From the NCBI GenBank assembly GCA_030533085.1, contig JAUNJZ010000002.1, positions 62,001 through 126,000 of the forward strand: 64,000 nucleotides of DNA, given 5' to 3'. Every line of letters begins with the position of its first letter. The first letter of the stretch is position 1. A program made the translations under genes and the position numbers. Positions 4,678-62,028 of this stretch are shown here, in pieces. Origin of the DNA: Synergistaceae bacterium. GTDB taxonomy: Bacteria > Synergistota > Synergistia > Synergistales > Synergistaceae. The notes below the pieces were generated by a model. The model did not search any database. It worked only from the letters and a program-made list of their open reading frames with translations, and was not told the origin of the DNA.

Positions 4678-4746
4678 TAGATAACAAGCGCTTCTTAGCG
4701 TTAAATGTGGGAAAAAAGGATAAAAATTCAAGGAGGAAATCAGAAA

Positions 4747-5232
4747 ATGGCAACTCAGGAAAATTTCGCAACAGCATTCGCTGGAGAATCACAGGCCAAC
4801 CGTAAGTACCTTCTCTACGCCGAGCAGGCCGAAAAAGACGGCTTCGCGGGAATAGCGAAGCTCTTCCGCGCGACGGCGGAGGCAGAGACAATCCACGCCT
4901 TCGCTGAATTCAAGGCAATGGGCGGGGTCAGCACCACCGCGAACAACCTTCAGGCGGCTATCAACGGCGAAACCTATGAATTCACCGATATGTACCCTCC
5001 GATGGTCACAGAGGCCGAAGCCGAAGGCAACAAAGAGGCGGCTCGTATCTTCCGTTATGCCGAAGCCGCTGAAAAAGTTCACGCGAAGCTCTATCAGGAC
5101 GCCCTCAACGATATGAGCAACACCGAAGCCGACTACTATCTCTGCCCGATATGCGGCTTTATCCACAAAGGCCCCACGAGCGAAAATTGCCCGATATGCG
5201 GAGCCAAGGCGTCAATATTCAAGAAATACTAA
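4747..5232 (+). CDS. rbr: Rubrerythrin
   Basis: 161-residue rubrerythrin, a non-haem diiron peroxidase that protects anaerobes from hydrogen peroxide. The N-terminal four-helix ferritin-like domain carries the diiron ligand motifs ETIH (47-50) and EKVH (109-112); the C-terminal rubredoxin-like domain has C133, C136, C148 and C151 for one iron. Length is slightly below the classic 190-residue form, as in the short anaerobe type. ATG 4747 has AAGGAGG about ten bases upstream. It has its own promoter, a palindrome over the -10, and a terminator, so it appears monocistronic and regulated. Confidence 0.95.
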   Translation: MATQENFATAFAGESQANRKYLLYAEQAEKDGFAGIAKLFRATAEAETIHAFAEFKAMGGVSTTANNLQAAINGETYEFTDMYPPMVTEAEAEGNKEAARIFRYAEAAEKVHAKLYQDALNDMSNTEADYYLCPICGFIHKGPTSENCPICGAKASIFKKY

Positions 5233-5296: not shown

Positions 5297-6628
5297 CTAA
5301 AAGCTGACCCGCCTTTTCGGGCCGAGCGGAAGCGGCGGCCTGCGCCGCGCCTCCTCAGCCGCCGCGCTGTGCGCGCGCTGCGGATACCAGCGCGGAGTCC
5401 TCTCGGGGGCGGCGAAATTATCCGCGGAAGCGATGACGACCTTGCCAAACTCAAGATTCAGAGCATCGGCCACAGCCGCCGCCGCGCGCAGACGCCCATT
5501 CCGTTCCCCCTCCGGCTCCCCATCCTCGTCGAACAAAAGCCGCTGCCTCCCGAAGCTGACGTCGCTGAAGCCGGAAAGCCGCACGCCGGCCTTTTTATAA
5601 AGCGCCCCTTCGCGGAAAATCTTTTGCAGCATAGACCTCGCCGCATACAGAAAATCCGCGTCCAGAGACTTTGGAACAGAAAATATATACTCGTCCTCTC
5701 CGAAATAAAAATTCTCCCGTCGGAACGGGTTCGTCCTGATATAAAGCCCCATCCTTGAGGCCGCCTGCCGCGCGCCGCGCAGCTGACGGGCGGCGCAGAG
5801 CGTAAAATATGATACGGCGTCAAGAAGCTCCTCATAAGAAGAGACGGCGTCGCCGAAGGAACGCGAAACCTGAATAGAGCTGGGCGCTCCATGCTTCTCG
5901 GAAAGAGGGTAAACGGAATAGCCGCGCAGCTCCCAGGCGGTATAAAGGGCGTTCACAGAAAAATTCTTTTTGAGCCACAGATCGTCCGCCATCATAAAAT
6001 CAGCCGTGTTTTTGATACGGTAAGAGGAACGCAGCCGCGCCGCCATCCTCCTCCCTATCCCCCACACCTCCTCCAGAGGAAAAGCCGCCATCCATTCCGC
6101 GTCGCCGGCACAGCTCGAATCTATCCAGAAAACCCCGTCCGCGCTCATCTTCGCGCAGTGAGAGGCCAGCTTGGCAAGCGTCTTTGTTGAAGAAATGCCG
6201 ATAGACACAGGAATGCCGCAGCTCCGCCATATATCCTCGCGTATCTCGCGGCAGTAAGCCGCCGGATCCTCCACAGAGGCAATAGCAAGATTAAAAAAAG
6301 CCTCGTCGATAGAATAGACCTCCATCAGATCGCTGAAACGGGAAAGACGCCCCATCACCTCGGAAGAAATTTTATTATAAAGCGACAGCCGTCCGCTCAG
6401 CACCGCCGCCCCCGCCCGCTCCAGCAGCCCCCTGACCTTAAAATACGGCTCGCCCATCCCCACCCCCAGAGCCTTCGCCTCATTGGAACGCGAGACCACG
6501 CAGCCGTCGTTGCCGCTCAGCACCACGACCGGACGCGAAAGCAAAGAAGGATTCTCCCTCCGCTCACAGGAGACAAAAAAATTATTACAGTCGCATAAGC
6601 CAATGGAACGCTCCAATAGATTCTTCAT
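5297..6628 (-). CDS. Y-family DNA polymerase, UmuC type
   Basis: 443-residue translesion DNA polymerase of the UmuC branch. The palm acidic residues are present in LCDCNNFF (D13) and YSIDEAF (D108, E109), and the steric-gate/fingers segment VVVLSGNDGCVVSRSNEAK is typical of UmuC rather than DinB. An HhH region (EEVWGIGRRMAARL) and little-finger domain follow; the basic, Pro-rich last 30 residues look disordered. ATG 6628 has AAGGAG ten bases upstream, better than ATG 6655 which lies before it. No umuD/lexA partner is adjacent and no Cheo-type LexA box was found in the promoter. Confidence 0.88.
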   Translation of the reverse strand: MKNLLERSIGLCDCNNFFVSCERRENPSLLSRPVVVLSGNDGCVVSRSNEAKALGVGMGEPYFKVRGLLERAGAAVLSGRLSLYNKISSEVMGRLSRFSDLMEVYSIDEAFFNLAIASVEDPAAYCREIREDIWRSCGIPVSIGISSTKTLAKLASHCAKMSADGVFWIDSSCAGDAEWMAAFPLEEVWGIGRRMAARLRSSYRIKNTADFMMADDLWLKKNFSVNALYTAWELRGYSVYPLSEKHGAPSSIQVSRSFGDAVSSYEELLDAVSYFTLCAARQLRGARQAASRMGLYIRTNPFRRENFYFGEDEYIFSVPKSLDADFLYAARSMLQKIFREGALYKKAGVRLSGFSDVSFGRQRLLFDEDGEPEGERNGRLRAAAAVADALNLEFGKVVIASADNFAAPERTPRWYPQRAHSAAAEEARRRPPLPLGPKRRVSF

Positions 6629-6666
6629 GTAACATTTTCTCCTTAAAGAAAACATCTATCTTCTAT

Positions 6667-6859: not shown

Positions 6860-7981
6860 ATGAAGAGCAAAGAAATAGAATTACCAACATTAAACATTGG
6901 AGGACATCAGCCCAAATACCCAATAATACAGGGAGGAATGGGCATCATGGTTTCAGGCCCCCGACTGGCCGGCGCGGTCGCCGCGGCGGGCGGCGTGGGA
7001 ACGATAGCCTCAGTCGGGCTGGCCGCGTCGCTGAAAGACTTCGACATGGCCTCCGGCAGCGGAAACATAAGCCGCCAAAACGGTGAAACGCTGGCCAGAT
7101 ATGTTAAAGAGGCAAAAGCGGCCTCAAATGGCGGCGTCATAGCCGTCAACTGCATGTGCGCCCTGAGCGACTACGAAGATCTGGTGCGCACCTCCTGCGC
7201 CGCCGGAGCCGACATTATAATATCGGGGGCCGGACTGCCGCTCAAGCTGCCGCAGCTTACGGAAGCTCACCCCGAAACGGCGCTGGTGCCGATAGTCAGC
7301 AGCGTAAAAGCCGCCTCCCTCATCCTCAGCCGCTGGGTCAAGCATTATGGCCGTATCCCCGACGCCTTCGTCGTAGAAAGCCCCAACACGGCAGGAGGCC
7401 ACCTCGGAGCGCGCGACAGCGAACAGGCGATGGACAAAAGCCTTTCGCTGAAAGAGGTCGTCCCCGCGCTCGTGAAATACCTGAAAGAGCTGGGACACAA
7501 CATCCCCGTCATATCAGCCGGCGGCATATGGGACGGACAGGATATAAAAGAGGCGATCCTGATGGGGGCAAGCGGCGTACAGATGGGAACGAGATTCGCC
7601 GCGACGGAAGAGGGCGACGCCTCAGAGCGCTTCAAACAGGCGTACATCGAAGCCGAAGAAAAAGACGTGGTGCTGATCAAAAGCCCCTGCGGCCTGCCGG
7701 GACGCGCGATAATGAGCCCGCTCATAGAACGCTACTTCTCAGGAAAGCTTGAAAAAGTCGGCTGCAAGGCGGGCTGCCTCTCACACTGCATCTGCCGTAT
7801 GCAGCAGGAAACCTTCTGCATCGCCGACGCGCTCGTCAGCGCCTACAGAGGAGATTGGGAAAACGGCCTCTTCTTCTGCGGCAGCAACGTAACGCGGGTA
7901 AAATCAATACTCAAAGTAAAAGAGCTGATAAAAGAGCTTCTGTCAGACTTCAGCCTCCCTGAAGCGCAAAGCGCCTTTTAA
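6860..7981 (+). CDS. Nitronate monooxygenase / FabK-like flavoprotein
   Basis: 373-residue TIM-barrel flavoprotein of the nitronate monooxygenase (2-nitropropane dioxygenase)/FabK family. The N-terminal PIIQGGMGIMVSGPRLAGAVAAAGG FMN-site region, the mid ESPNTAGGHLG loop with its active-site His, and the ISAGGIWDG / GASGVQMGTRF phosphate-binding segments are all present. A Cys-rich C-terminal extension (CKAGCLSHCICRMQQETFC) is found in a subset of the family in anaerobes. It could oxidise nitronates or act as an enoyl-ACP reductase; neighbours do not decide. A decayed, internally deleted copy lies at 15154-15322. Confidence 0.85.
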   Translation: MKSKEIELPTLNIGGHQPKYPIIQGGMGIMVSGPRLAGAVAAAGGVGTIASVGLAASLKDFDMASGSGNISRQNGETLARYVKEAKAASNGGVIAVNCMCALSDYEDLVRTSCAAGADIIISGAGLPLKLPQLTEAHPETALVPIVSSVKAASLILSRWVKHYGRIPDAFVVESPNTAGGHLGARDSEQAMDKSLSLKEVVPALVKYLKELGHNIPVISAGGIWDGQDIKEAILMGASGVQMGTRFAATEEGDASERFKQAYIEAEEKDVVLIKSPCGLPGRAIMSPLIERYFSGKLEKVGCKAGCLSHCICRMQQETFCIADALVSAYRGDWENGLFFCGSNVTRVKSILKVKELIKELLSDFSLPEAQSAF

Positions 7982-7992
7982 GTCAAAATAAC

Positions 7993-8030
7993 GCGGGGCC
8001 GCTCTCAGAGAGAAGCCCCGCATTATTAGA
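7993..8030. terminator. Bidirectional terminator between flavoprotein and exopolysaccharide operon
   Basis: Stem GCGGGGC/GCCCCGC enclosing a second stem CTCTC/GAGAG. The minus reading is followed by GTTATTTTG and the plus reading by ATTATTAG, so it could end both convergent units. A degraded copy of this hairpin is retained in the ghost at 15154-15322. Confidence 0.6.
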
Positions 8031-8035
8031 AAATT

Positions 8036-9367
8036 TTAGTCAAATTTGCTTTTTTTCGTCACCCACCACGGAGCCATCGACGAATCCTTATGCGATCTGA
8101 ATGCAAGCTCATAAATAGTGGCTATAAGACTGTTAATGCGCGACGCAAAGGTAAACAGCGGGAATATAGCCAGCAGCGGCAGCCGTGACAGCTCCTCCTT
8201 CTTACGCTCCGAGATAAAAAGAAGCGAGGTTATATACGTCGCCGAGAGCAGAATGAAGTAAAACAGGTAGACGGCAAATAGGAGACTGGCGACATAGCCG
8301 AGCGGATATGCCCAGAAGAGCCAGAGAGAATATGTAAAAATCACAAAAGGCAGGACAATTTGAGAATATAGCCCGCTGAGAATGACCATGATAAAATTTG
8401 ACCAGCCAAGCAGGCGCGGACTGAAAGCCCTCCGGTGTTTCCGAAAATAGATGAACGACAGATCCCCGTCCCAGCGTATTCGCTGTCTGAAATATCCGAG
8501 GAAGGTATCCGGCACATCAGTATGCCCCATCGTCTCAGGGTCAAAGATTATCCTGAACCTTTCGCCATAGCGGCCAAAATATTGCTTGATACGCAGAGTC
8601 ATATCAAGGTCCTCCGCGGTACCGGCGTCCCATCCCCGCACCAGCTCTACGACGGAACGACGGAAAATCCCGAATGCGCCGGACACGTTGTTGACAAGGT
8701 TAAATTCGCTGAGCCCCGTCTTCGACGTCTGTATCGAGATGAAGTATTCAACAGCCTGAAGCGAGGCGGCAAGAGAGCTGTCAGCGTTGCGGACGCGCAG
8801 ACATCCCGATACGGCGGCGACGGTTGGATCTTCAAAATGGCGCACAGCGCGCTCCACCATATTATTATCAAAAGAGGTATCGCCGTCCAGAACAAAAATT
8901 ATGTCGCCTTTCATATAATTGAGGCCGGTGTTGATATTGGAAACCCTTCCGCCGCGCTGCCATTTGGGAACGACCTCCAGAACTCTCGCCGCAAGGCCGC
9001 TCACATAGCCCTTCATCGCGAGCGCCGCTTCATAAGTCTCCCTGTTACGCGCCGCGCCGTCAACCATCGCTATGATCTGTATGCGTCCGGGATATATCTG
9101 CTCAGCCAGCGTGCGGATTGTTCCTTGTACGTCCCGCCCTTCGCTGTAACAGGTGATAACGCACGAGACAGGAGGAAAATAGGCCCTTCTAACCCCCTCG
9201 CGGCTGCGCTCGAAGATATACTTCGTCACCCCCAGATAGATGAGCAGAGTGTAAGGAAGCTCATAAAAGATGATGAAAGGCATGAAGCGCATGATAAGCG
9301 GCCAGACGTCGCCGCTCACAAATGGCTCCAGCACGGGCTTCAGCAGCCAAAGGACAAACTCGTACAT
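8036..9367 (-). CDS. Processive family 2 glycosyltransferase, membrane polysaccharide synthase
   Basis: 443-residue inner-membrane GT2 synthase, last gene of a four-gene operon. One or two N-terminal membrane segments (residues 30-50) precede the catalytic domain, with MVDGA (D103), DGD (D161, D163), TAED (E252, D253) and the processive-synthase Q..RW motif (Q295, R298, W299). Three to four membrane segments follow at about 315-400. This is the layout of Alg8, PgaC and hyaluronan synthases; there is no C-terminal PilZ domain as in BcsA, so any c-di-GMP sensing must be in a partner. It starts 10 bases after the regulator gene. The polymer made cannot be predicted. Confidence 0.88.
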   Translation of the reverse strand: MYEFVLWLLKPVLEPFVSGDVWPLIMRFMPFIIFYELPYTLLIYLGVTKYIFERSREGVRRAYFPPVSCVITCYSEGRDVQGTIRTLAEQIYPGRIQIIAMVDGAARNRETYEAALAMKGYVSGLAARVLEVVPKWQRGGRVSNINTGLNYMKGDIIFVLDGDTSFDNNMVERAVRHFEDPTVAAVSGCLRVRNADSSLAASLQAVEYFISIQTSKTGLSEFNLVNNVSGAFGIFRRSVVELVRGWDAGTAEDLDMTLRIKQYFGRYGERFRIIFDPETMGHTDVPDTFLGYFRQRIRWDGDLSFIYFRKHRRAFSPRLLGWSNFIMVILSGLYSQIVLPFVIFTYSLWLFWAYPLGYVASLLFAVYLFYFILLSATYITSLLFISERKKEELSRLPLLAIFPLFTFASRINSLIATIYELAFRSHKDSSMAPWWVTKKSKFD

Positions 9368-9377
9368 CAGAGCAGCG

Positions 9378-10856
9378 CTATGCTTCCTTCGCCAGCTTTT
9401 TGAGCAGCTCGTCTGGCGGCAGCGAAGCGTCGTCCGCGGATATCGAGAAACATTTCACGGAGAGTCTCAGCTTTTCCGCCCCGCGTCCCTCAAACAGCGA
9501 AGACATATCTTCCAGCCTTTCGGTCAGTATCATTCCTCCGTTAAAAGGAGTACGCGGCAGCAGAAGCCAGAAAGCGCCGTCCTCTCCCAGAACAGTTATG
9601 TCCGTTTCGCGAACCAGCTCTCTTATCCTTCTGTCAAGCTCGCTTATAACAGCTCTTAATCCCGCCGTGCCGATAAGCTCCTCAGCCTCTGACAGACCGG
9701 AAAGCCGCGCCCTCAACAGTGAAAAATCCTCGTCGGCATAACGCCTGCGAAGTTCCAGCAGCCATTTGATAATTCCGCAGAAAGACTGCATAGTCACAAC
9801 GCTCGCGCCGCTGAACAGCATGAAATCTTCAGGAATAATGCCTGTACGCAGCGCCTCCTCACCTCTGTCGCTGAGCCTGTAGCCGTAAAAGTTACTGACC
9901 GTCAGCTCTTCCGGCAGCGAGCGCGTGCCGCAGCTGAGACAGCTTACCCTGACATCAGGCTCGACGAACGCGGAGCCGCAGTTCCCGCACTGATACGACT
10001 CAAGCGGGTAGTCGTAATCACTGCCGATGTGACGAAGCCTGCTGTCGCAGCGCGGACAGGAAAGGGTGAAACCGCGCCGGAACTCCGGCTCCGGGGCCAC
10101 ATAACCGCAGGTGAAGCAGTGAATCATCTTCTTCTTCGCAATATCCAGACTGCCGCAATGAGGGCAGATATCCACATAATTCAACATCCCTGTCTGGCAT
10201 TTGGGACAAAGCCTTATCCTGTCGTATATTCTGGTATGCTCGATATAGCCGTGGAGCTGAGCCTCCCTTATCCACTTCAACGCCACCGCCATCTCGTCGT
10301 CATTGAAGAGCGGGGCTCCGTGCAGCTCCGTCCCGCTGCCGCCGCTGTATCTTTCCGGCTCGCCGCCGTCGCGGTTCATGATTGCCGCGACCAATGGATA
10401 GCCATATATACATTTTGAGCCTGGAGCGCAGAAGGGAGCCAGCTCATAATCCGAACCGCGCGCGTACATATAGCTGAGCATACGCAGCTTATAGCTCCCC
10501 TCCAAAGACGACGCCCTGAGCTGTTCTCCGCGGTTCAGTATCATATCGCCGGCTCTCGCGAGCGCGCCGACATCGTCAGATACGCCGTCAGCCAGCACGT
10601 CAAGAGCGCTGACAGAATGGGTGAAGAAAATAGGCGCGTAACAGAAAATAGCGCTCCTGCGAAGCGCCAGTATATTCTCCGCGTACTCCCGTTCCTCCCC
10701 CTGATGAAAAAGCTGCGTCTCCATTATCACGCTACCGGCCTCACGCTCTGAGGCAAGAAGCTCCTCCGCCGAGCGGTACACGCGGATAGACCGACCATCA
10801 TCTCTCGCCTCTTTAAAAGAGCCGGAGACAAGCATTAAAACCGGATATTTCTTCAT
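9378..10856 (-). CDS. Multi-zinc-ribbon regulator with degenerate GGDEF domain (TackOD1-like)
   Basis: 492-residue cytoplasmic protein with no membrane segment. Residues 1-110 look like a receiver-type alpha/beta domain. Residues 217-309 hold six CxxC knuckles (217/220, 231/234, 247/250, 267/270, 290/293, 306/309), enough for three zinc ribbons; this resembles what is known as thaumarchaeal output domain 1. The C-terminus is a GGDEF domain in which the signature is replaced by EDGAF (425-429), so it cannot make c-di-GMP, but RETD (416-419) sits exactly five residues before it, the place of the inhibitory I-site. I infer a c-di-GMP receptor that controls the synthase, comparable in logic to PelD. 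Its gene lies between the adaptor and synthase genes. Confidence 0.7.
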   Translation of the reverse strand: MKKYPVLMLVSGSFKEARDDGRSIRVYRSAEELLASEREAGSVIMETQLFHQGEEREYAENILALRRSAIFCYAPIFFTHSVSALDVLADGVSDDVGALARAGDMILNRGEQLRASSLEGSYKLRMLSYMYARGSDYELAPFCAPGSKCIYGYPLVAAIMNRDGGEPERYSGGSGTELHGAPLFNDDEMAVALKWIREAQLHGYIEHTRIYDRIRLCPKCQTGMLNYVDICPHCGSLDIAKKKMIHCFTCGYVAPEPEFRRGFTLSCPRCDSRLRHIGSDYDYPLESYQCGNCGSAFVEPDVRVSCLSCGTRSLPEELTVSNFYGYRLSDRGEEALRTGIIPEDFMLFSGASVVTMQSFCGIIKWLLELRRRYADEDFSLLRARLSGLSEAEELIGTAGLRAVISELDRRIRELVRETDITVLGEDGAFWLLLPRTPFNGGMILTERLEDMSSLFEGRGAEKLRLSVKCFSISADDASLPPDELLKKLAKEA

Positions 10857-10868
10857 CCAAATTCGCTC

Positions 10869-11909
10869 CTAACGAAAAAATCTTATGCCCCAGTCAATGC
10901 GAACAGGCATACCGTTGACGCTCTCTTCCGTAAGCAGGCGTTCATTCGGTTTCAAGAATACGACAATACTGCGGCGTCCTGAAAGTATCGTGTCGGAGAT
11001 TCCTCCGGGGATACTGTTAGCGTTCAGCGGCGGCTCGATCACAGTCGCCTCTATCGTTCGGCCGCTTCCGGGCAGATGTACCTTCGCCACGCTTCCGGGA
11101 CGCACGCGCCTGTCATAATTTTCAGGAAAAACATAAGCGATCAGATAAGGATCATCAGGGTCCGCAATCCTCATAAGCTCAAGCTCTCCAACCGTGTAAT
11201 ATCCTACAGCGGCGGCGATATATTCAACCCTTCCGGCTCGCGGGGCGTATATCACGGACGGAGTGCGCAGCTTCTCCTCCAGCATCTCGGCATACCTTCT
11301 CAAATACGCCTTGCGGACTTCGGCGCTCTGGTCCAGCGGCACAATCAGAGAAACGCGCAGCGCCTCGCGCTCATTCTGCGCGGAAATAAGGCGCTCCTTC
11401 GCCTGATTATACTCGGCGCGCGTAGCCGCCCCCTTTTCCATCAGGCCCTTCATCACGCGCTCTTCGTTGGCAAGATGAGCCACCATACTGTCCATCTGCC
11501 CCAGCGATCGGCGCGGGAGCGCCGCCGCGGAGACCGGCACGCCTGAAAGCGCCTCCAATTCGGCCTTGACACGCCTCAACTCAGCCATGCCGGCCTCCGG
11601 AACATACCTTTTCATCTCCGCGAGAGGGGCGCCAGCGGCCACACTCTCACCGGCTCTGACATATATCCTGCTTATCTCACCCTCCTCAAAAGCCTTAACA
11701 GGATAAGAATCCATAGCGATAACCCCTGGAGAGGAAATAAAAAGCCACCTTGCCCCAAGCGAAGCCAGCAACCACAGGAACGGAGCGAACACCAGAGTCA
11801 GAATCAGCCACCAAACGGCCTTGGAAACCTTTCTCCTGGCGGGGGCATAGCTTATCTTAATGCCGTCCTTATTCTCCGGATTCATTCTTCTGCTAAAAGA
11901 TACCCTCAT
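10869..11909 (-). CDS. HlyD-family periplasmic adaptor
   Basis: 346-residue membrane-fusion protein. One membrane segment (about residues 30-53) follows a basic cytoplasmic N-terminus; then come a lipoyl half-motif (FEEGEISRIYVRAGESVAAGAPLAEM), a helical hairpin (about 90-210), the second lipoyl half (IYAPRAGRVEYIAAAVG) and beta-barrel domain. It should bridge the inner-membrane synthase to the TolC-like protein. The layout recalls the periplasmic part of Alg44, but no PilZ domain is present. The start codon overlaps the stop of the TolC-like gene (TGATG), which suggests translational coupling, and the regulator gene follows after 12 bases. Confidence 0.85.
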   Translation of the reverse strand: MRVSFSRRMNPENKDGIKISYAPARRKVSKAVWWLILTLVFAPFLWLLASLGARWLFISSPGVIAMDSYPVKAFEEGEISRIYVRAGESVAAGAPLAEMKRYVPEAGMAELRRVKAELEALSGVPVSAAALPRRSLGQMDSMVAHLANEERVMKGLMEKGAATRAEYNQAKERLISAQNEREALRVSLIVPLDQSAEVRKAYLRRYAEMLEEKLRTPSVIYAPRAGRVEYIAAAVGYYTVGELELMRIADPDDPYLIAYVFPENYDRRVRPGSVAKVHLPGSGRTIEATVIEPPLNANSIPGGISDTILSGRRSIVVFLKPNERLLTEESVNGMPVRIDWGIRFFR

Positions 11910-14086
11910 CAGCGCATCACCTCATAATCTTTCCAGTCCTGCACGACAATTCCCTTATAATTACGATATCGCGAAAGCCGCTCGTCAATTTCGCGCATTG
12001 AAGCGCCGAAAGCAGCCATCCCGGCCGCGGCGTAGCTCTCGCTCCTGGGAAGCACCCTCTCAACGCTTTGCGCCAACACAAAATCAAAGCGCGGGAAACT
12101 GGCGAGAATCTCAGACATTCTGGAAACCACCCTCTCCCTGTTCGTAGAATAAATCATCGGCGCTATATAGCTTACATCGTCGGGAGAGAGCCTTTTCGCG
12201 ACAAGCGCCCCAAGCTCCCCTTCCAGATATCTGGGATGTACAGAGAGCGAAAGCGGCCTGCCGCTCGCGCTTCGCGACTCCTTTATAGTATCTATAAGCA
12301 AACCAAGCAGCTCGTGGCGCATTCCCTCCGCGCCAGGCAAAGAGTCCGGTTCTATATCAAGGTGAATACCGGCGAAGCGGAAATCTGACATAGAGCCTAT
12401 AATCGCGGTCAGGCTCTTCCTGTTCTCAGGAAAAAGCCATGTCGGCTCTCCAAGAAGCAGCTCTGTCGAGATACCGGCGGACGACGCTTCGGAAAGAAGC
12501 GCCTTCAAATTCCTTCGCCCCTCTTCGCTCCGAAAACCGTTCAACTCCTTAGCGGTAAAAGATAGCAGCATTCTGGCAATACCGCGTCCGCTCAGCCTCT
12601 TCAGCGCGCCGCCGCGCGTCGTTGGATTCAGAAAAGGCGACGCCTCCCATATATAGACGCTCCCCGCCGGCGGCGCCTCCACAGCGACGCCCCGCTTGCC
12701 CTCGACAGCCACAGCGGCGGCTGACCTCTCAGAAAACCACAACGGAGAAAGCATCCGCTCCAGCGCCCTTAAAGAGGCAGTGTCGGTACGCGCGGCAGGT
12801 TCCGTATTCCTGCCGCGTGGATAGGCGTAACTGAGAATATCCGCGCCGCTCTCCATAAAAAGCTGATAAGAGTCAAGCACATCCATCGCCACGCGATAAT
12901 ATTGATAACGGCTTGCCTGCAGCTGCTCAAGAGTATCTCCGGCAATAGCGGCATGCCGCAGCAGCTTCTCGCGGACATTCTCCGATATCGCCCTCAGCCG
13001 TGAAAGCTGCGCCTCGATATTCGCGGAGGCATACGCGGCGTAAGAAACCGCTTCCTCAGCCTCGCCGTCTAACGTCATGCGTGTAAAAAGCTCTTCGCGC
13101 TCCGCCCGCTCATAATCCGCGCGCGCTGCAAGATTCGCCTTATCCTCCGCAGAAGCGGCCGCCTTCAAAGGCTCTGAAATATTAAAGCCTAGATAAACGC
13201 CGCTGCCGTAATCACCCGGCTCCTCCTTACTGCCCGTAACCCCCACGACAAGTGAACTCTCCAAATCAATACGCTTTGTAACATCGACAAGCTTCGCGTA
13301 CCTCTCCAGCGCCTCCCTGCGCGCAAGAAAAGCCGGATTCGCCTCTATATCAGCGGCTGCGCCGTCAAAAACCGGCAGCGTCGGAAAAGCAAGCTCCCCA
13401 TCCTCCGGCATAGGCCACATAACGCCGGTAGACAGGCGAATAACCTGAAGCGCCTGCACCTTTCTCAGATTAGCGACCGCAATATCCCGCCTTGCCATCT
13501 CATAAGCGCTGTCAAATTCAAGCTTATCGGCCTTCAACAGCAAAGCCGCATCCCTCCGCTCCTCAAGACGACGCGTCACATCGCAGCGCGAACTGAGAAA
13601 CAAAGAGGCCAGCCGGATCTTCTGCGACTCCGTCCACAAAACCGCGTAAGCCTTCCTCAGCGCCGCCAGATTATGAAGCGCCAGCATCTGCGGTCGATAT
13701 CTGGAATCGATCGCCGCCAACTCCGCGTTCAGCCTGTTTATCCTGAGCTTGTCCCACGTGCCGAAAAGCGGAAAGCTCACCCCGGCCCCAACAGTGATCT
13801 TTTCATAACTTATATTGGAAGTGCTGCCGACAAACTGCGGCTCGTCATTATATCCATAAGAGGCGTTGAAAAAATAGCGCGCGCCCTCGCGCTGGCGTTC
13901 CAGCTCCTCGGCAAGCGAATCGCGCCGCATCGCGGAAATGGCGGCCAGAACCTCAGGCCCGTCTCCCGCTCTGCCTTCAAGCTCCTCAAGCGCTGGAAAA
14001 CCCATAGCCGCGCACGGATAAAAAGCAAAGAAAAAGAGCGCCGCGGCAGACGCCAACAAGCATTGTAAAGATAACTTTTTTAACAT
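11909..14086 (-). CDS. TolC-like outer-membrane protein fused to a glycoside-hydrolase-like TIM barrel
   Basis: 725-residue two-part protein. A signal peptide (residues 1-29) precedes a TolC/outer-membrane-efflux domain (about 30-425) with two alpha-helical hairpin repeats; after a linker, residues 476-725 look like a TIM-barrel glycosidase with GIHLDIEPD (D577, E579) at the end of a beta-strand, the place of catalytic acids in GH18-like barrels. I infer an export channel carrying its own polymer-trimming enzyme. ATG 14086 is chosen because GAGG lies ten bases upstream and a signal peptide follows at once; ATGs at 14104 and 14122 are poorer. First gene of the operon, 21 bases after the decayed surface-protein gene. 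Confidence 0.8.
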   Translation of the reverse strand: MLKKLSLQCLLASAAALFFFAFYPCAAMGFPALEELEGRAGDGPEVLAAISAMRRDSLAEELERQREGARYFFNASYGYNDEPQFVGSTSNISYEKITVGAGVSFPLFGTWDKLRINRLNAELAAIDSRYRPQMLALHNLAALRKAYAVLWTESQKIRLASLFLSSRCDVTRRLEERRDAALLLKADKLEFDSAYEMARRDIAVANLRKVQALQVIRLSTGVMWPMPEDGELAFPTLPVFDGAAADIEANPAFLARREALERYAKLVDVTKRIDLESSLVVGVTGSKEEPGDYGSGVYLGFNISEPLKAAASAEDKANLAARADYERAEREELFTRMTLDGEAEEAVSYAAYASANIEAQLSRLRAISENVREKLLRHAAIAGDTLEQLQASRYQYYRVAMDVLDSYQLFMESGADILSYAYPRGRNTEPAARTDTASLRALERMLSPLWFSERSAAAVAVEGKRGVAVEAPPAGSVYIWEASPFLNPTTRGGALKRLSGRGIARMLLSFTAKELNGFRSEEGRRNLKALLSEASSAGISTELLLGEPTWLFPENRKSLTAIIGSMSDFRFAGIHLDIEPDSLPGAEGMRHELLGLLIDTIKESRSASGRPLSLSVHPRYLEGELGALVAKRLSPDDVSYIAPMIYSTNRERVVSRMSEILASFPRFDFVLAQSVERVLPRSESYAAAGMAAFGASMREIDERLSRYRNYKGIVVQDWKDYEVMR

Positions 14087-14106
14087 TTTTTCTGAACCTC
14101 GCATCT

Positions 14107-14698
14107 TTATACCGGCCGCCATCCATTGTTATGAGGGGCATCGACATCCGTCGCGACAATGGCTTCATTGCCGCTTGACCAACTTACCGTTGGAGTTGCC
14201 GCGCCGGCATACAGCGCCCTCGCGGATAGCTGAGCAGGGTCGCCGGCGGCAGAGACCAAGCCGCTGCTTGCGCAGTCAGTTATTCTACGGCAGTCATGCC
14301 CAGCGACACACCCGGCGTAGACATCGTAGACTGGCCGGGTACATTTATATCGCCGCTGATTCATATCCGGCTGTAGTGACCAATGTAATAATACCCGATT
14401 GACGTCGGGCTGGCTGATGTTATTGTGTAGTTGACTGTGTGGCTGTCGAGGTCGATATCGCTGATTAGCCTGGCCTTCAAATCCAGGCTTGCGCCGCATT
14501 TGTTTACTTCGTCATGGAAGCCTTTAAGCTGTTCGCTTGTGGTTATCCGGTCGCCGCTTTTCGCCGGTGCGGTGAAGGTAAAGAGTGAGAATAGCAGTAA
14601 GAGCGATAATAAAGTATAATGAACTTTATTGCATCTTAGGGGGGGGCAATACTATTGTTCAGCGAATTGATGTGGCAGACGCTTTTTTCTGAGAACAT
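14107..14698 (-). pseudogene. Decayed GLUG-repeat surface protein, paralogue of the gene at 48048-50231
   Basis: A ribosome-binding site (AAGGAG) and ATG at 14698 open a frame that resembles the N-terminus of the intact paralogue but stops after 20 codons, because the C-run at 14646-14639 has 8 bases; 6 or 9 would restore the frame. In the restored frame the signal peptide CNKVHYTLLSLLLLFSLF is nearly that of the paralogue, followed by about 70 residues to a TGA at 14361. In a further frame to 14107 a GLUG-like repeat (VYAGCVAGHDCRRITDC) and an Ig-like piece (PTVSWSSGNEAIVATDVD) remain. The middle and C-terminus, including any sorting signal, are gone. Promoter and leader are conserved with the intact gene. 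Confidence 0.75.
14639..14646 (-). repeat. Poly-C tract (8 bp) in the decayed surface-protein gene
   Basis: Run of 8 C on the coding strand, at the same place as the 12-C tract of the intact paralogue. Its length puts the signal peptide out of frame with the start codon. Confidence 0.8.
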
Positions 14699-14793
14699 CT
14701 TTATCCAACTCCTTGCAGTTTTAGATTTGGACAGCCTCACGACACAACAGAGAAAAGCGCCCTCCGCCGCGAATAAAAGCAATCCATTGCGAT

Positions 14794-14822
14794 ACGATAT
14801 AACCTTTTCTGGCTACTGTCAA
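14794..14822 (-). promoter_or_regulatory. Promoter of the decayed surface-protein gene
   Basis: Reading leftwards: TTGACA, 17-base spacer, TATCGT. The spacer (GTAGCCAGAAAAGGTTA) is largely the same as that of the promoter at 50329-50357, so the two were copied with the genes. It points towards the exopolysaccharide operon, which has no other obvious promoter. Confidence 0.65.
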
Positions 14823-14842
14823 GTTGCGGATTTTCAGGTCGA

Positions 14843-15119
14843 CAGCATTTACTTTTTGTGTATTTCTCTTTATGTATTTAGAAAGCACTGGTCGATAGAA
14901 AATCAACGGCACTGGCGTCTGGATGTAATATTCCGTGAGGGCGCGTTAATAGCCGGAAAAGGCAACTCCCCGCTTAACAGGAACGTCTTGCGCAAGAATG
15001 CGCTTGCTCTGTTGAATCAGACAAAATACGTCCGTTTGAGCAAGAAGATGACGTTCAAGGCTGCGCTTAACCCGAAAACTTTGCTTTATCTCTTATTTAA
15101 ATTTAAAAAATAAATGCTG
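14843..15119 (+). mobile_element. ISAs1-family insertion sequence remnant with both ends
   Basis: The frame ending at 15113 encodes the C-terminal quarter of an ISAs1-type transposase (RKHWSIENQRHWRLDVIF, then NVLRKNALALL and FKAALNPKTLLYLLF); the catalytic DDE part upstream is missing. Terminal inverted repeats AGCATTTACTTTTT (14844-14857) and, inverted, AGCATTTATTTTTT (15118-15105) bound the piece, so it is an internally deleted, non-autonomous element of about 277 bp. No target duplication was recognised. The right 30 bases match 47795-47824 on the other strand at 27 of 30 positions. Confidence 0.75.
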
Positions 15120-15153
15120 CGCCCCGCGGAAGTCACTCCCTCTGTTGCCAAAG

Positions 15154-15322
15154 AGAGGAATTGGCGTCATGCTTTCAGACCCCAGACCGGCCGGCGCAGT
15201 TGCTGCGGCGGCCGGCGTTGGAACGATAGCTTCAGTTGGGCTGGCCGCGTCGCTCCTGAAGCGCAAAGCGCCCTTTAAGTCAAAATAATGCGAGGCTGCT
15301 CTCAGACGGAAGCCCCGCATTC
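15154..15322 (+). pseudogene. Internally deleted ghost copy of the nitronate monooxygenase/FabK-like gene
   Basis: Bases 15154-15254 match codons about 27-58 of the gene at 6860-7981 (AGAVAAAGGVGTIASVGLAAS region), and bases 15255-15322 match its last codons, stop and terminator. The join removes roughly 920 bp of the intact sequence. Several substitutions and the start-region loss show it is old and non-functional. Confidence 0.8.
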
Positions 15323-15635
15323 TCATTTCCCGCGGCGGGAAAAATACAAATAGAGCAGGCAGGCAAACTCTATCAGAACGAGAGACACAAGAAAAAACAG
15401 CAATAGAGAAGCACCCCCTGCAAGTTAATAGCCGAAAGCCGACCGGCTGACATATTCTACATACTAATACATCACAGAGCAACACTACTGACTTTAGAAC
15501 AGGTATTTTATGCCAGAAGAAATATCATTCATCCCTCCCATAAGTGAAAAAGAGTCACTTTTCGCTCTTCTTCAACGCAGCGTCCGCAAACAGAACGGAA
15601 ACGCTTTACCTTTAATTTTGCCCTCGCCGCCGGCG
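15323..15635. other. Intergenic region without a recognised gene
   Basis: 313 bases between the ghost and truA. A 26-codon minus-strand frame from a TTG at 15403 encodes a hydrophobic stretch ending FSRRGK after an AGGGGGTG, but such a short frame is not enough to call a gene. Weak hairpins lie near 15545-15605 after truA; none has a convincing T-run on the minus strand. Confidence 0.4.
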
Positions 15636-16394
15636 TTACCAGATTTTTTCGTCGTATGATATTTTCCAGAGGTAGAGGCCGCAGGCGGGGAAGGTGCGGC
15701 CGCCGTCGGCTCTTGCGCTTTTGTCTATGTCCAGAAGCTTTTTTATTTCTTCCGGCTTTATGCGGCCTAGGGCGGCCATTTCCAGGTTTCCTAGTATGAC
15801 GCGCACCATGTTGTGCAGGAAGCCGTCTCCTTTTATTTTCAGTATTACGAGCGGCTCTCTGTCGATGAGGCGTATTTCGCTTATCGTTCTGACTGTGTTT
15901 TGTTCGCCGCCTTCGGGGCGGCAGAAGTTTCTGAAGTCGTGGCGGCCAAGCAGCTCTTTTGCGGCGGCGGCGGCGGCGCGCCAGTCGTATTTCCGGGCTT
16001 TCAGCCAGCAGACTTTGCCTTTCATGTATGGGTAGATGGCGCTTGCGTTCCATATGAAGTAGCGGTATTCACGCTCTTTGGCGCTGAAGCGGGCGTGGAA
16101 GTTTTCCGGCACGGCGGCGGCGCGCATGAGGCTGACGCCTTCCGGCAGGTGCGCGTTGGCGGCGAGGAGCAGGCGGCGCGGCTCCCATTCGCGTTCCATG
16201 TCGAAGCTGCAGACTTGTCCGCGCGCGTGTACGCCGGCGTCTGTGCGTCCGGCTCCGGCGGCGGGGGTGCGGCGGCCGTTTATTTTTGACAGCGCCTCTT
16301 CGACCGCCTGTTGTACTGTCGGCAGTTCCGGCTGTATCTGCCAGCCGAAGAATTTGCCTCCGTCGTAGCTTATTTCAGCCGCGTAGCGTGTCAT
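15636..16394 (-). CDS. truA: tRNA pseudouridine(38-40) synthase TruA
   Basis: 252-residue TruA. It converts U38-U40 in the anticodon arm of many tRNAs to pseudouridine. The catalytic Asp lies in GAGRTDAGVHA, followed by the family motifs FHARFSAKEREYRY and KGDGFLHNMVR. Length is normal (about 250-270). The start overlaps the ecfT stop by four bases (ATGA), so it is the last gene of the translationally coupled rplQ-ecfA1-ecfA2-ecfT-truA string, the same order found in many Firmicutes. Confidence 0.95.
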   Translation of the reverse strand: MTRYAAEISYDGGKFFGWQIQPELPTVQQAVEEALSKINGRRTPAAGAGRTDAGVHARGQVCSFDMEREWEPRRLLLAANAHLPEGVSLMRAAAVPENFHARFSAKEREYRYFIWNASAIYPYMKGKVCWLKARKYDWRAAAAAAKELLGRHDFRNFCRPEGGEQNTVRTISEIRLIDREPLVILKIKGDGFLHNMVRVILGNLEMAALGRIKPEEIKKLLDIDKSARADGGRTFPACGLYLWKISYDEKIW

Positions 16395-17203
16395 AGCGGG
16401 AGCAGCCTTTCTCCGGCGATTATGAGGACAGCAATGGCCGCGAACGCCGCAAGGGCGGCGCTGTCCGCGGCGCGCCAGCAGAGCGGTTTCATGCGGCTGC
16501 GTCCCGCGCCTCCGTTGTAGCCGCGCGCTTCCATGGCGGATGCGAGGCTTTCCGCGCGTCGGAAGATGATGACGAACAGCGGTATGAGTACCGGTATGTA
16601 GGCTTTGGCGCGTTTCAGGAGGCCGCCTTCGTCAAATTCCGCGCCGCGCGATTTCTGCGCCTTTATTATGCGCGCTGTTTCTTCAAAGAGTGTCGGTATG
16701 AAGCGCAGGGCTATTGTTATCATCATCGCCGTTTCGTGCGCCGGTACGCCTATGCGTTTCAGCGGCGAGAGGAGTCCTTCAAGGCCGTCCGAGATGCGGG
16801 AGGGGGAGGTGGTGAAGGTGAGGAGGGAGGCGTACATTACAAGGCAGGCGAGGCGCAGCGACATTGTGAGCGCGAGGCGTATCCCCTCTTTTGTGACGGT
16901 TAGGGGGCCAATTTTTGCTGCGGCTTCGCCGGGGGTCATGAATAGGTGCAGGAGTGAGGTGAAGATTATCAGTATGAGGACGGGGCGGGCTGAGGCCGCG
17001 ACGACGCGCGGCGGTATTTTCGACAGGCGCGCGAGGAGCAGGAGGATGAGTCCCCAGAGTATGAAGGCTGCGGCTGTGCGGGTCATGAATATGGCCGCCA
17101 TGGCCGCGATTGTGAGGATTATTTTCGCGCGCGGGTCCAGGGCGTGTATCGGCGATTGCGCCGGTATGTAGCGGCCAAGGGCTATTTTATCGAAGGCTGG
17201 CAT
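16391..17203 (-). CDS. ecfT: ECF transporter transmembrane component EcfT
   Basis: 270-residue T-component of a group II energy-coupling-factor vitamin transporter. It has about five membrane segments and the two cytoplasmic coupling motifs with Ala/Ser-Arg-Gly, seen as KSRGAEF and MEARGYNGG, which insert into the ATPase pair. It couples ATP hydrolysis by EcfA1/A2 to any of several S-components (riboflavin, folate, biotin and others). The gene overlaps ecfA2 by 17 bases and truA by 4. No S-component gene is present in the window. Confidence 0.93.
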   Translation of the reverse strand: MPAFDKIALGRYIPAQSPIHALDPRAKIILTIAAMAAIFMTRTAAAFILWGLILLLLARLSKIPPRVVAASARPVLILIIFTSLLHLFMTPGEAAAKIGPLTVTKEGIRLALTMSLRLACLVMYASLLTFTTSPSRISDGLEGLLSPLKRIGVPAHETAMMITIALRFIPTLFEETARIIKAQKSRGAEFDEGGLLKRAKAYIPVLIPLFVIIFRRAESLASAMEARGYNGGAGRSRMKPLCWRAADSAALAAFAAIAVLIIAGERLLPL

Positions 17204-60723: not shown

Positions 60724-62028
60724 TTACAGCTCTTCGCTGTCCTGCCATATCATCCGCCCCTCGACAAAGGTCATGACCGGCCAGCCGGTGAGGGCTATTC
60801 CCTCCCACGGGCAGCAGCGCGCCTTGCTTTTCCATGTCTGGCAGTCAACGATGCGCGTCCTGCTTTCGTCTATGACAGTGAGGTCGGCGACCGCGCCCTC
60901 TTCTATTCTGCCGAGAGCGTTCCATTTTTCCGGCAGCAGAGAGGCGGGGGCGCTCGTCATCTTTGTGAAGAGCAGCTCCAGCGGCACTTCGGGATAGTTG
61001 CGCGCGCGGTAGTCAAGCAGCACGGCGACCGCGCATTCAAGGGAGGCTATGCCGAAGGGGGCCTCCTGGAACGGCTCGTCCTTCTCGTCCATGTGCCACG
61101 GCGCGTGGTCTGTCACTATCGCGTCTATCGTGCCGTCTTTCAGCCCCTCCCAAAGCGCGCGCTGGTCTTCGACGGAACGCAGCGGCGGGTTGACTTTGAA
61201 GCGCGAGTTGTAGCCGCTGTTGATGACCGCGTTTTCGTTAAGCGTCAGATGATGGAAGGTGGTGTCGCAGCTAACGTCAAGACCGGCGCGCTTCGCGTTG
61301 CGGATAAGCTCCACGGCTCCGGCGCTGGATATATGCGTGAAGTGGATGCGTCCGCCTGTGTCGCGGACAAGAGCGATGCCGCGCGCCACATCTATTTCCT
61401 CGGAGGCTCCGGGAATGCCTTTCAGTCCGGAAAGGGCGCTGACACGCCCCTCGTGAACCTGCCCTCCCTGAAAAAGGCTGATCTCTTCAGGATGTTCCAT
61501 CACGCGCGGAAGCACCTTGCCTGTATAGAGCAGCGCGAGACGAAGGAGCTGGCTAGTGGCGACAGGCGCGCCGTCGTCTGTGAAGAATACCGCGCCGGCC
61601 TCCGCCATCTTTTCCATCTCGCACATCTCTTTGCCCTCGCGTTTTTTGCTCACGCAGCCGGCCGGCAGTATGCGGGCGGCCTTTGCCGCCGCGCCGTGGC
61701 TGAGCACATATTCTATCAGCGCAGGCTCCGAGACGGCCGGTTTTGTGTTGGGCATCGCGACAAGCGTCGTGAAGCCGCCGGCGGCTCCCGCCATCGCGCC
61801 GCTTTTAAGATCTTCGTTCCACTCCTGCCCCGGGTCGCGGAAGTGCGCGTGCAGGTCAATGAAGCCGGGGACAATAAGGCGTCCGTCGCCCTCTATAATC
61901 TCCGCGCCGCCGCACTCAAGGCCGCTGCCTGTCTTCACGATCTTTCCATCTTCTGCCAGAAGGCAGTCGTCTTTTATAAATTCAGTACCGTTGAATATTT
62001 TGAAGCCTTTGAAAAGCAGTTTTCCCAT
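60724..62028 (-). CDS. pyrC: Dihydroorotase, class I
   Basis: 434-residue zinc amidohydrolase, carbamoyl-aspartate to dihydroorotate. Metal motif DLHAHFRDPG near residue 60, His ligands in FHHLTLNE-like FTHISSAG and TFHHLTL, and the catalytic Asp in VTDHAPWH are present; the last DLTVID-type C-terminal strand is normal. Start overlaps the pyrB stop (TAATG). Confidence 0.95.
   Translation of the reverse strand: MGKLLFKGFKIFNGTEFIKDDCLLAEDGKIVKTGSGLECGGAEIIEGDGRLIVPGFIDLHAHFRDPGQEWNEDLKSGAMAGAAGGFTTLVAMPNTKPAVSEPALIEYVLSHGAAAKAARILPAGCVSKKREGKEMCEMEKMAEAGAVFFTDDGAPVATSQLLRLALLYTGKVLPRVMEHPEEISLFQGGQVHEGRVSALSGLKGIPGASEEIDVARGIALVRDTGGRIHFTHISSAGAVELIRNAKRAGLDVSCDTTFHHLTLNENAVINSGYNSRFKVNPPLRSVEDQRALWEGLKDGTIDAIVTDHAPWHMDEKDEPFQEAPFGIASLECAVAVLLDYRARNYPEVPLELLFTKMTSAPASLLPEKWNALGRIEEGAVADLTVIDESRTRIVDCQTWKSKARCCPWEGIALTGWPVMTFVEGRMIWQDSEEL

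Follow-up and report, generated by a model that had tools for sequence, protein, structure and literature searches.

What could be accomplished by four adjacent genes whose products resemble a TolC-type channel fused to a glycosidase, an HlyD-family periplasmic adaptor, a cytoplasmic protein with a degenerate GGDEF domain, and a family 2 glycosyltransferase (GT2)? The question is raised by an operon on the minus strand of a 64,000-nucleotide stretch of DNA from a Synergistaceae bacterium (hereafter, the window; positions 62,001 to 126,000 of contig JAUNJZ010000002.1, assembly GCA_030533085.1). We consider it highly probable that the four proteins constitute a synthase-dependent exopolysaccharide secretion system that is gated by cyclic di-GMP (c-di-GMP) and has a TolC/HlyD conduit, its activity, ligand, and cargo being read from sequences and structure models. 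All four reading frames are open and co-oriented in the order TolC-glycosidase, HlyD, regulator, and GT2; the first two overlap by one base, and gaps of 12 and 10 bp separate HlyD from the regulator and the regulator from GT2. The original prediction, which had described four tightly spaced or overlapping minus-strand genes, was therefore accurate as to the layout. It also named the parts correctly, i.e., a processive GT2 with DGD, ED, and Q..RW motifs, an HlyD protein, a TolC-like channel with a glycosidase-like barrel, and a degenerate GGDEF, but its zinc-ribbon dead-GGDEF regulator was incompletely drawn, because a receiver-like domain accompanies the two domains that it recognized.

The conservation of the operon is far above chance. 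In a sample of 151 Synergistota genomes examined with three independent queries (the TackOD1 profile PF18551 for the regulator, a GT2 alignment, and a TolC-glycosidase alignment), TackOD1 was detected in 32 genomes, in 30 of them above the cut-off. Wider stretches were inspected around the 30 strong loci and one weak match. The order TolC-glycosidase, HlyD, regulator, and GT2 was observed in 30/30 strong loci, departures from the full order being due to contig ends, to an insertion that interrupts one regulator, and to another regulator that was read in two pieces; none of the other operon genes surrounds the weak match. The GT2 alignment recovered 29 of these 30 genomes and none of the remaining 121; in the 30th (L044), the start of GT2 is present on a truncated contig. 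The TolC-glycosidase alignment recovered the same 30 genomes, again with no other among the 151. With the three queries in agreement, the complete set is present in 30 genomes and wholly absent from 121 at the thresholds used, and the sequence comparison indicates that the parts are inherited as a unit. No adaptor paralogue was found in the genome that contains the window. Other GT2-domain proteins are encoded there, and one that was inspected is only 23% identical to the operon GT2, over part of its length. In a relative of the same family (genome G135), the regulator gene is split by a ~1.3 kb insertion (L053:7983-9154) with the appearance of a minus-strand transposase gene of the ISAs1 family; GT2, HlyD, and TolC-glycosidase remain open, so that the locus represents a natural regulator knock-out.

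A cross-phylum scan, for which one genome per species was used and 80 of 215 regulator relatives were retained, placed relatives of the regulator outside Synergistota in Desulfobacterota, one Acidobacteriota metagenome-assembled genome (MAG), Bacillota MAGs, Nitrosomonas, Thioalkalivibrio, Pseudomonas, Stutzerimonas, Halomonadaceae, Marinobacter, and others. GT2 adjoins the regulator in all 80. The gene order of the window occurs in Synergistota, Bacillota, and Acidobacteriota, and a second order, regulator, GT2, TolC-glycosidase, and HlyD, in Desulfobacterota and most Proteobacteria. Some genomes occur in both locus sets, and non-redundant counts are given separately: of 69 non-redundant loci with 7 kb or more of sequence on each side, all 69 carry both GT2 and HlyD, 68 carry the glycosidase, and 63 carry the TolC part. 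In four Pseudomonas loci and one MAG labeled Synechococcus, the TolC part is missing and the glycosidase is encoded on its own, as a short protein bearing a signal peptide or lipobox; in three of these genomes, which were searched for TolC-family proteins, 9-32 matches were counted elsewhere. L095 and L096, as well as plasmid-borne loci of Photobacterium, Plesiomonas, Alisedimentitalea, and Phyllobacterium, consist of regulator, GT2, and HlyD only. As TolC and the glycosidase are not always in the cluster, the minimal core is regulator-GT2-HlyD. Joint conservation of the four genes, on which the original prediction had staked itself beforehand, is thus seen as co-occurrence and co-linearity across phyla; the predicted four-gene unit is constant in its three core genes and variable in the remainder.

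The regulator is found at E < 1e-40 in 10 of 299 sampled Pseudomonadota (~3%), and two Bacillota MAGs have 15-20 TolC-family matches of their own. Copies in genomes labeled Methanomethylovorans (L086) and Oscillospiraceae (L090) are found on 6-kb contigs that were probably assigned to the wrong bin, and only one TolC-family match occurs in the entire L090 genome. The small mobilizable plasmid pKAM345_3 of Aeromonas caviae (L146, 7635-10004) bears a close regulator homologue annotated as "diguanylate cyclase", followed by a GT2 gene cut by the record end, and hence the system may travel on plasmids. On a Plesiomonas shigelloides plasmid (L147:7557-11257), the regulator-GT2-HlyD genes lie near galM and genes of sialic-acid/N-acetylmannosamine catabolism. 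At the Alisedimentitalea locus (L148:7854-9163), the regulator ends after TackOD1 and a separate small open reading frame, perhaps a split GGDEF remnant, precedes GT2. The flanks examined revealed no conserved partners such as deacetylase or nucleotide-sugar genes; galE follows HlyD in one locus (L148).

The regulator matches TackOD1 at 6e-57, and its structure model (predicted local distance difference test, pLDDT, 87.8) contains an N-terminal alpha/beta domain resembling a receiver, a central region rich in cysteines, and a GGDEF fold at the C-terminus; Foldseek retrieved diguanylate cyclases, PleD among them, with this model. Pfam matches in the family comprise TackOD1 in 40/40 members, GGDEF (PF00990) in 38/40, and PelD_GGDEF in 5. 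The GG[DE]EF motif is kept in 0/109 family members, and an active diguanylate cyclase can therefore be rejected, though some relatives are annotated as such. By alignment and model, the protein appears to be a dead cyclase that retains an intact RxxD inhibitory site beside a zinc-ribbon TackOD1 domain. R416 and D419 of the predicted site are invariant in 97/97 non-redundant regulators, and position 447 is Arg in 92/97 and Lys in 5/97. The spacing of R416 and R447 is one that we take to be shared with R359/R390 of PleD, and R447 is a possible third contact for c-di-GMP. The control by c-di-GMP that had been proposed for the operon thus passes a test at the sequence level, the RxxD motif persisting despite the loss of catalysis. 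Conversely, the GGDEF remnant might bind another ligand or serve in dimerization while the zinc ribbons sense metal or redox state, which would be compatible with polymer export. The TackOD1 cysteines are invariant in a domain of no known function, and the dead catalytic loop is variable among relatives. TackOD1 was defined in archaeal response regulators, where its functions were called "obscure" (PMC5847659), and no further paper naming it was found in the literature searched, which left out most subscription journals. However, the conservation of RxxD and of Arg or Lys at position 447 (97/97) where catalysis is lost, together with the occurrence of the operon in GGDEF-rich genomes, makes such a sensor unlikely as a substitute for a c-di-GMP receptor. 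Among the matches listed, the 30 operon genomes have a median of 14 GGDEF matches and a minimum of 4, and the 121 operon-less Synergistota genomes have a median of 5, with ten having none, a contrast that is confounded by phylogeny.

GT2 matches Glyco_tranf_2_3 (Pfam) at 4e-20, and its hydropathy indicates a single membrane segment near the N-terminus and several toward the C-terminus. D103, D161xD163, E252D253, and Q295RxR298W299 are invariant in all non-redundant loci covering those sites, and by alignment GT2 lacks none of the catalytic residues that characterize processive synthases of the inner membrane. The best equivalog is PgaC_IcaA, at 128.9 bits versus a curated cut-off of 422, followed by NodC at 74 bits; CelA scores 23.9 bits versus a cut-off of 699. 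Judged by these scores, GT2 is a processive synthase of its own clade, and its assignment as a PgaC, BcsA, or NodC ortholog was rejected. Pfam gave no match to a PilZ domain in the window GT2. With NodC as the second-best equivalog, the product might be a short secreted oligosaccharide or signaling glycan that is sized by the glycosidase and released by TolC, rather than a matrix polymer; the fusion of the channel to a glycosidase with an invariant active site would fit, and small cargo suits TolC pipes. We regard this as very unlikely, given the higher score of PgaC (129 bits), the membership of the dead-GGDEF receptors PelD and BcsE in matrix-polymer systems (PMC8461298, PMC7439463), and the lack of a conserved acyltransferase or sulfotransferase partner.

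The adaptor matches HlyD_3 at 8e-9 and has one N-terminal transmembrane helix at residues ~27-54, as judged by hydropathy. Its best-conserved region is the cytoplasmic tail, in which Y21 (95/95), R26 (96/96), W33 (96/96), Lys or Arg at position 25 (96/96), and F5 (91/95) are kept in the non-redundant loci and G16 is nearly or fully invariant across phyla; from this conservation, the tail may dock the synthase or the regulator. At the other end, the tip of the helical hairpin seems to resemble in part the TolC-docking tip of AcrA-type adaptors, and the pattern L...G.[ST]..E is found in 89/108 loci. The full RLS motif, R...L......[ST], is no feature of the family (41/108, counted anywhere in the protein).

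The TolC-glycosidase of the window gave no Pfam match on its own. OEP/TolC was matched by 35/37 members of its family, however, and the family profile matches MtrE, OprJ, and TolC chains at 3e-6. The model (pLDDT 90.6) depicts a TolC protomer, a flexible linker (residues 467-484), and an eight-stranded TIM barrel. Foldseek retrieved CusC, TolC, OprM, and VceC for the channel half (E 1e-14), and GH84 (glycoside hydrolase family 84) O-GlcNAcase (3e-4) and a GH18-fold xylanase inhibitor for the barrel half; the Glyco_hydro_18 profile reached only E 0.06, in 2/37 family members. Seven residues at the C-terminal ends of the barrel strands show no variation in the non-redundant set (82/82): D589 and E591 after strand 4, H629 and R631 after strand 5, Y658 after strand 6, E688 after strand 7, and Q728 at strand 8. 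Their position and invariance suggest that the glycosidase is probably active. Since TolC has its C-terminus in the periplasm, the barrel would be located there as well, in the compartment where AlgL, BcsZ, PelA, and PgaB work. The start of the fusion at 14086 is likely, as it gives a classical signal peptide.

From these parts, the following scheme can be drawn. The other GGDEF proteins of the genome would make c-di-GMP, which might bind to the I-site of the regulator by analogy with PelD and BcsE, and the ligand-bound regulator would switch on the synthase, possibly via the cytoplasmic tail of the adaptor. The synthase would polymerize a common nucleotide sugar and extrude the resulting homopolymer; a sugar of the N-acetylglucosamine type is the most likely, given that GT2 is nearest to the PgaC/IcaA family and that the barrel is similar in fold to hexosaminidases. 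A ring of HlyD would conduct the chain through the periplasm to TolC, and stray polymer might be trimmed or cleared by the glycosidase attached to the channel, as it is by BcsZ, PelA, or PgaB in their own systems. Several observations weigh against this scheme. TolC export is itself unvalidated in the cyanobacterial precedent discussed below, according to the review describing it (PMC12430437); of the RLS motif known from adaptors that dock to TolC, only a part is retained, with the Arg displaced; L095, L096, L145, and L147-L149 carry neither TolC nor glycosidase in the cluster; and the sugar is weakly constrained, since the conserved set includes no dedicated nucleotide-sugar or deacetylase gene. 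The absence of TolC from some clusters, the breadth of the GT2 family, and the usual service of HlyD and TolC to pumps of the ATP-binding cassette (ABC) or resistance-nodulation-division (RND) type would also suit a GT2 that makes an envelope glycan or a lipid- or protein-linked surface sugar, with HlyD/TolC as an efflux or lipid-transport conduit tied to it by regulation alone. Such an arrangement is highly improbable: QxxRW and D,DxD,ED are invariant as in processive synthases, PgaC/IcaA is the closest equivalog, the conserved set has no gene for an ABC, RND, or major facilitator superfamily (MFS) transporter, and HlyD stays with GT2 where TolC is absent. Ordinary efflux or type I secretion was rejected on the same lack of an ABC, RND, or MFS gene.

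Synthase-dependent systems are defined by a synthase, a c-di-GMP regulator, a periplasmic enzyme, and an exit formed by a tetratricopeptide repeat (TPR) protein and a beta-barrel; five polymers made in this way are catalogued, and TPR/beta-barrel exits are typical of the Gram-negative systems (PMC7112194). The operon discussed here is discrete and conserved and encodes, judged by motifs and transmembrane segments, an inner-membrane processive synthase; it also encodes, as candidate c-di-GMP regulator, a degenerate GGDEF with an intact RxxD, as in receptors of the PelD/BcsE type, and a predicted glycosidase with invariant D589, E591, and E688 as the periplasmic modifying or hydrolyzing enzyme. 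In place of a TPR protein with a beta-barrel outer-membrane pore, the exit comprises an HlyD adaptor and a TolC-type channel; the system is therefore a variant, not a standard member, of synthase-dependent exopolysaccharide systems, and is not Pel, Pga, Bcs, or alginate. Pel shares a degenerate cytoplasmic GGDEF that keeps RxxD (PelD) and a periplasmic glycosidase (PelA), but it has a family 4 glycosyltransferase (PelF), PelG, and a PelB/PelC exit, and PelD has membrane helices and a GAF domain where the operon regulator has a receiver-like domain and TackOD1; binding of c-di-GMP by PelD needs RxxD and a further Arg, R402 (PMC8461298). Bcs has a hydrolase partner and BcsE, a soluble, degenerate receiver-GGDEF tandem that binds dimeric c-di-GMP at RxxD (PMC7439463), whereas BcsE is an accessory protein without TackOD1, BcsA has PilZ, and export proceeds through BcsC and not TolC/HlyD. 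In logic, the operon regulator is closest to BcsE and PelD, and the hydrolase-pore fusion finds a parallel in BcsZ-BcsC of Zymomonas (PMC7112194). Pga supplies the closest GT2 equivalog and a periplasmic TIM-barrel glycosidase, PgaB of GH153 (PMC5933820), but PgaD, the deacetylase, and the PgaA porin have no counterpart in the operon. Alginate synthesis combines the GT2 Alg8 with the co-polymerase Alg44, in which a c-di-GMP receptor accompanies a membrane-fusion domain of the HlyD kind (PMC8461298); it differs in the PilZ sensor fused to the membrane-fusion domain, the AlgK/AlgE exit, and many modifying enzymes.

The nearest precedent is XcsAB-TolC, a cellulose system proposed in cyanobacteria by Maeda et al. 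(2018), as described in a review (PMC12430437). It likewise combines a GT2, an HlyD-like adaptor, and a TolC-like channel with an associated glucanase. In that account, c-di-GMP acts on XcsAB-TolC via PilZ on the synthase and the genes are scattered or TolC lies outside the operon; the present GT2 is PgaC-like, lacks PilZ, and is not a cellulose synthase by its CelA score, and all the genes here form a single operon in which sensing is assigned to a distinct TackOD1/dead-GGDEF protein and the hydrolase and channel are one polypeptide. The two thus differ in the sensor, the synthase type, the gene linkage, and the fused glycosidase. Because of this proposal and the membrane-fusion domain of Alg44, the original statement that known systems do not use TolC/HlyD was too strong. 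Apart from the cyanobacterial proposal, no account of this gene set turned up in the literature searched, although most subscription journals were outside the search and a prior description is possible.

Table 1. Positions in the window of the operon genes and of the sites discussed in the text.
Feature	Position	Strand	Extent and basis
GT2 synthase	8036-9367	minus	443 amino acids; Pfam/NCBIfam matches, alignment, hydropathy
Regulator	9378-10856	minus	492 amino acids; PF18551 match and structure model
Regulator domains			receiver-like, residues 1-110; TackOD1 zinc-ribbon, residues 191-328; degenerate GGDEF, residues ~350-492
R447 of regulator	9516-9518	minus	31 residues after R416
Predicted I-site motif R416-E-T-D419	9600-9611	minus	HMMER alignment to RxxD of solved diguanylate cyclases
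HlyD-family periplasmic adaptor	10869-11909	minus	346 amino acids; HlyD_3/HlyD_D23 matches, hydropathy
Adaptor helical-hairpin tip L156-MEKGAATRAEY167	11409-11444	minus	aligned examples
Adaptor cytoplasmic tail	11811-11909	minus	MK[IV]xF...G-x-K-V-x-Y-[AS]-x-x-KR......W
TolC-glycosidase fusion	11909-14086	minus	725 amino acids counted from signal-peptide Met; frame open from 14122
TIM-barrel glycosidase half	11912-12667	minus	residues ~486-737; model and Foldseek
TolC/OEP channel half	12725-14023	minus	residues ~34-466 in 737-amino-acid frame; family profile and Foldseek

The operon is bounded below by a gene on the opposite strand (6860-7981), and the next same-strand gene above it, a truA-like gene (15636-16394), is 1.5 kb off. 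An Rfam search of 7900-16500 found no c-di-GMP riboswitch upstream of the operon. A plus-strand fragment upstream (14655-15113) resembles the C-terminus of an ISAs1-type transposase, and the ~500 bases from this fragment toward the operon look like degraded remnants of a surface-protein gene, with immunoglobulin-like repeat words. Farther below the operon lie a minus-strand gene for a Y-family DNA polymerase (UmuC-like, 5297-6655) and, adjoining it, a plus-strand rubrerythrin-like gene (4705-5232).

Whether these observations define a new secretion class extending over multiple phyla, in which GT2 replaces the ABC/RND pump in a TolC-HlyD conduit, the TackOD1/dead-GGDEF receptor switches the synthase on via the conserved cytoplasmic tail of the adaptor, and the polymer falls outside the five catalogued, is in our estimation evenly balanced. 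If this is true, it would provide the first function for TackOD1. With the operon also present in Pseudomonas, Stutzerimonas, and Nitrosomonas, which are tractable, the unvalidated model of TolC export would become directly testable, and a co-linear unit with a TolC/HlyD exit would point to an unrecognized matrix polymer in nitrifiers and pseudomonads.

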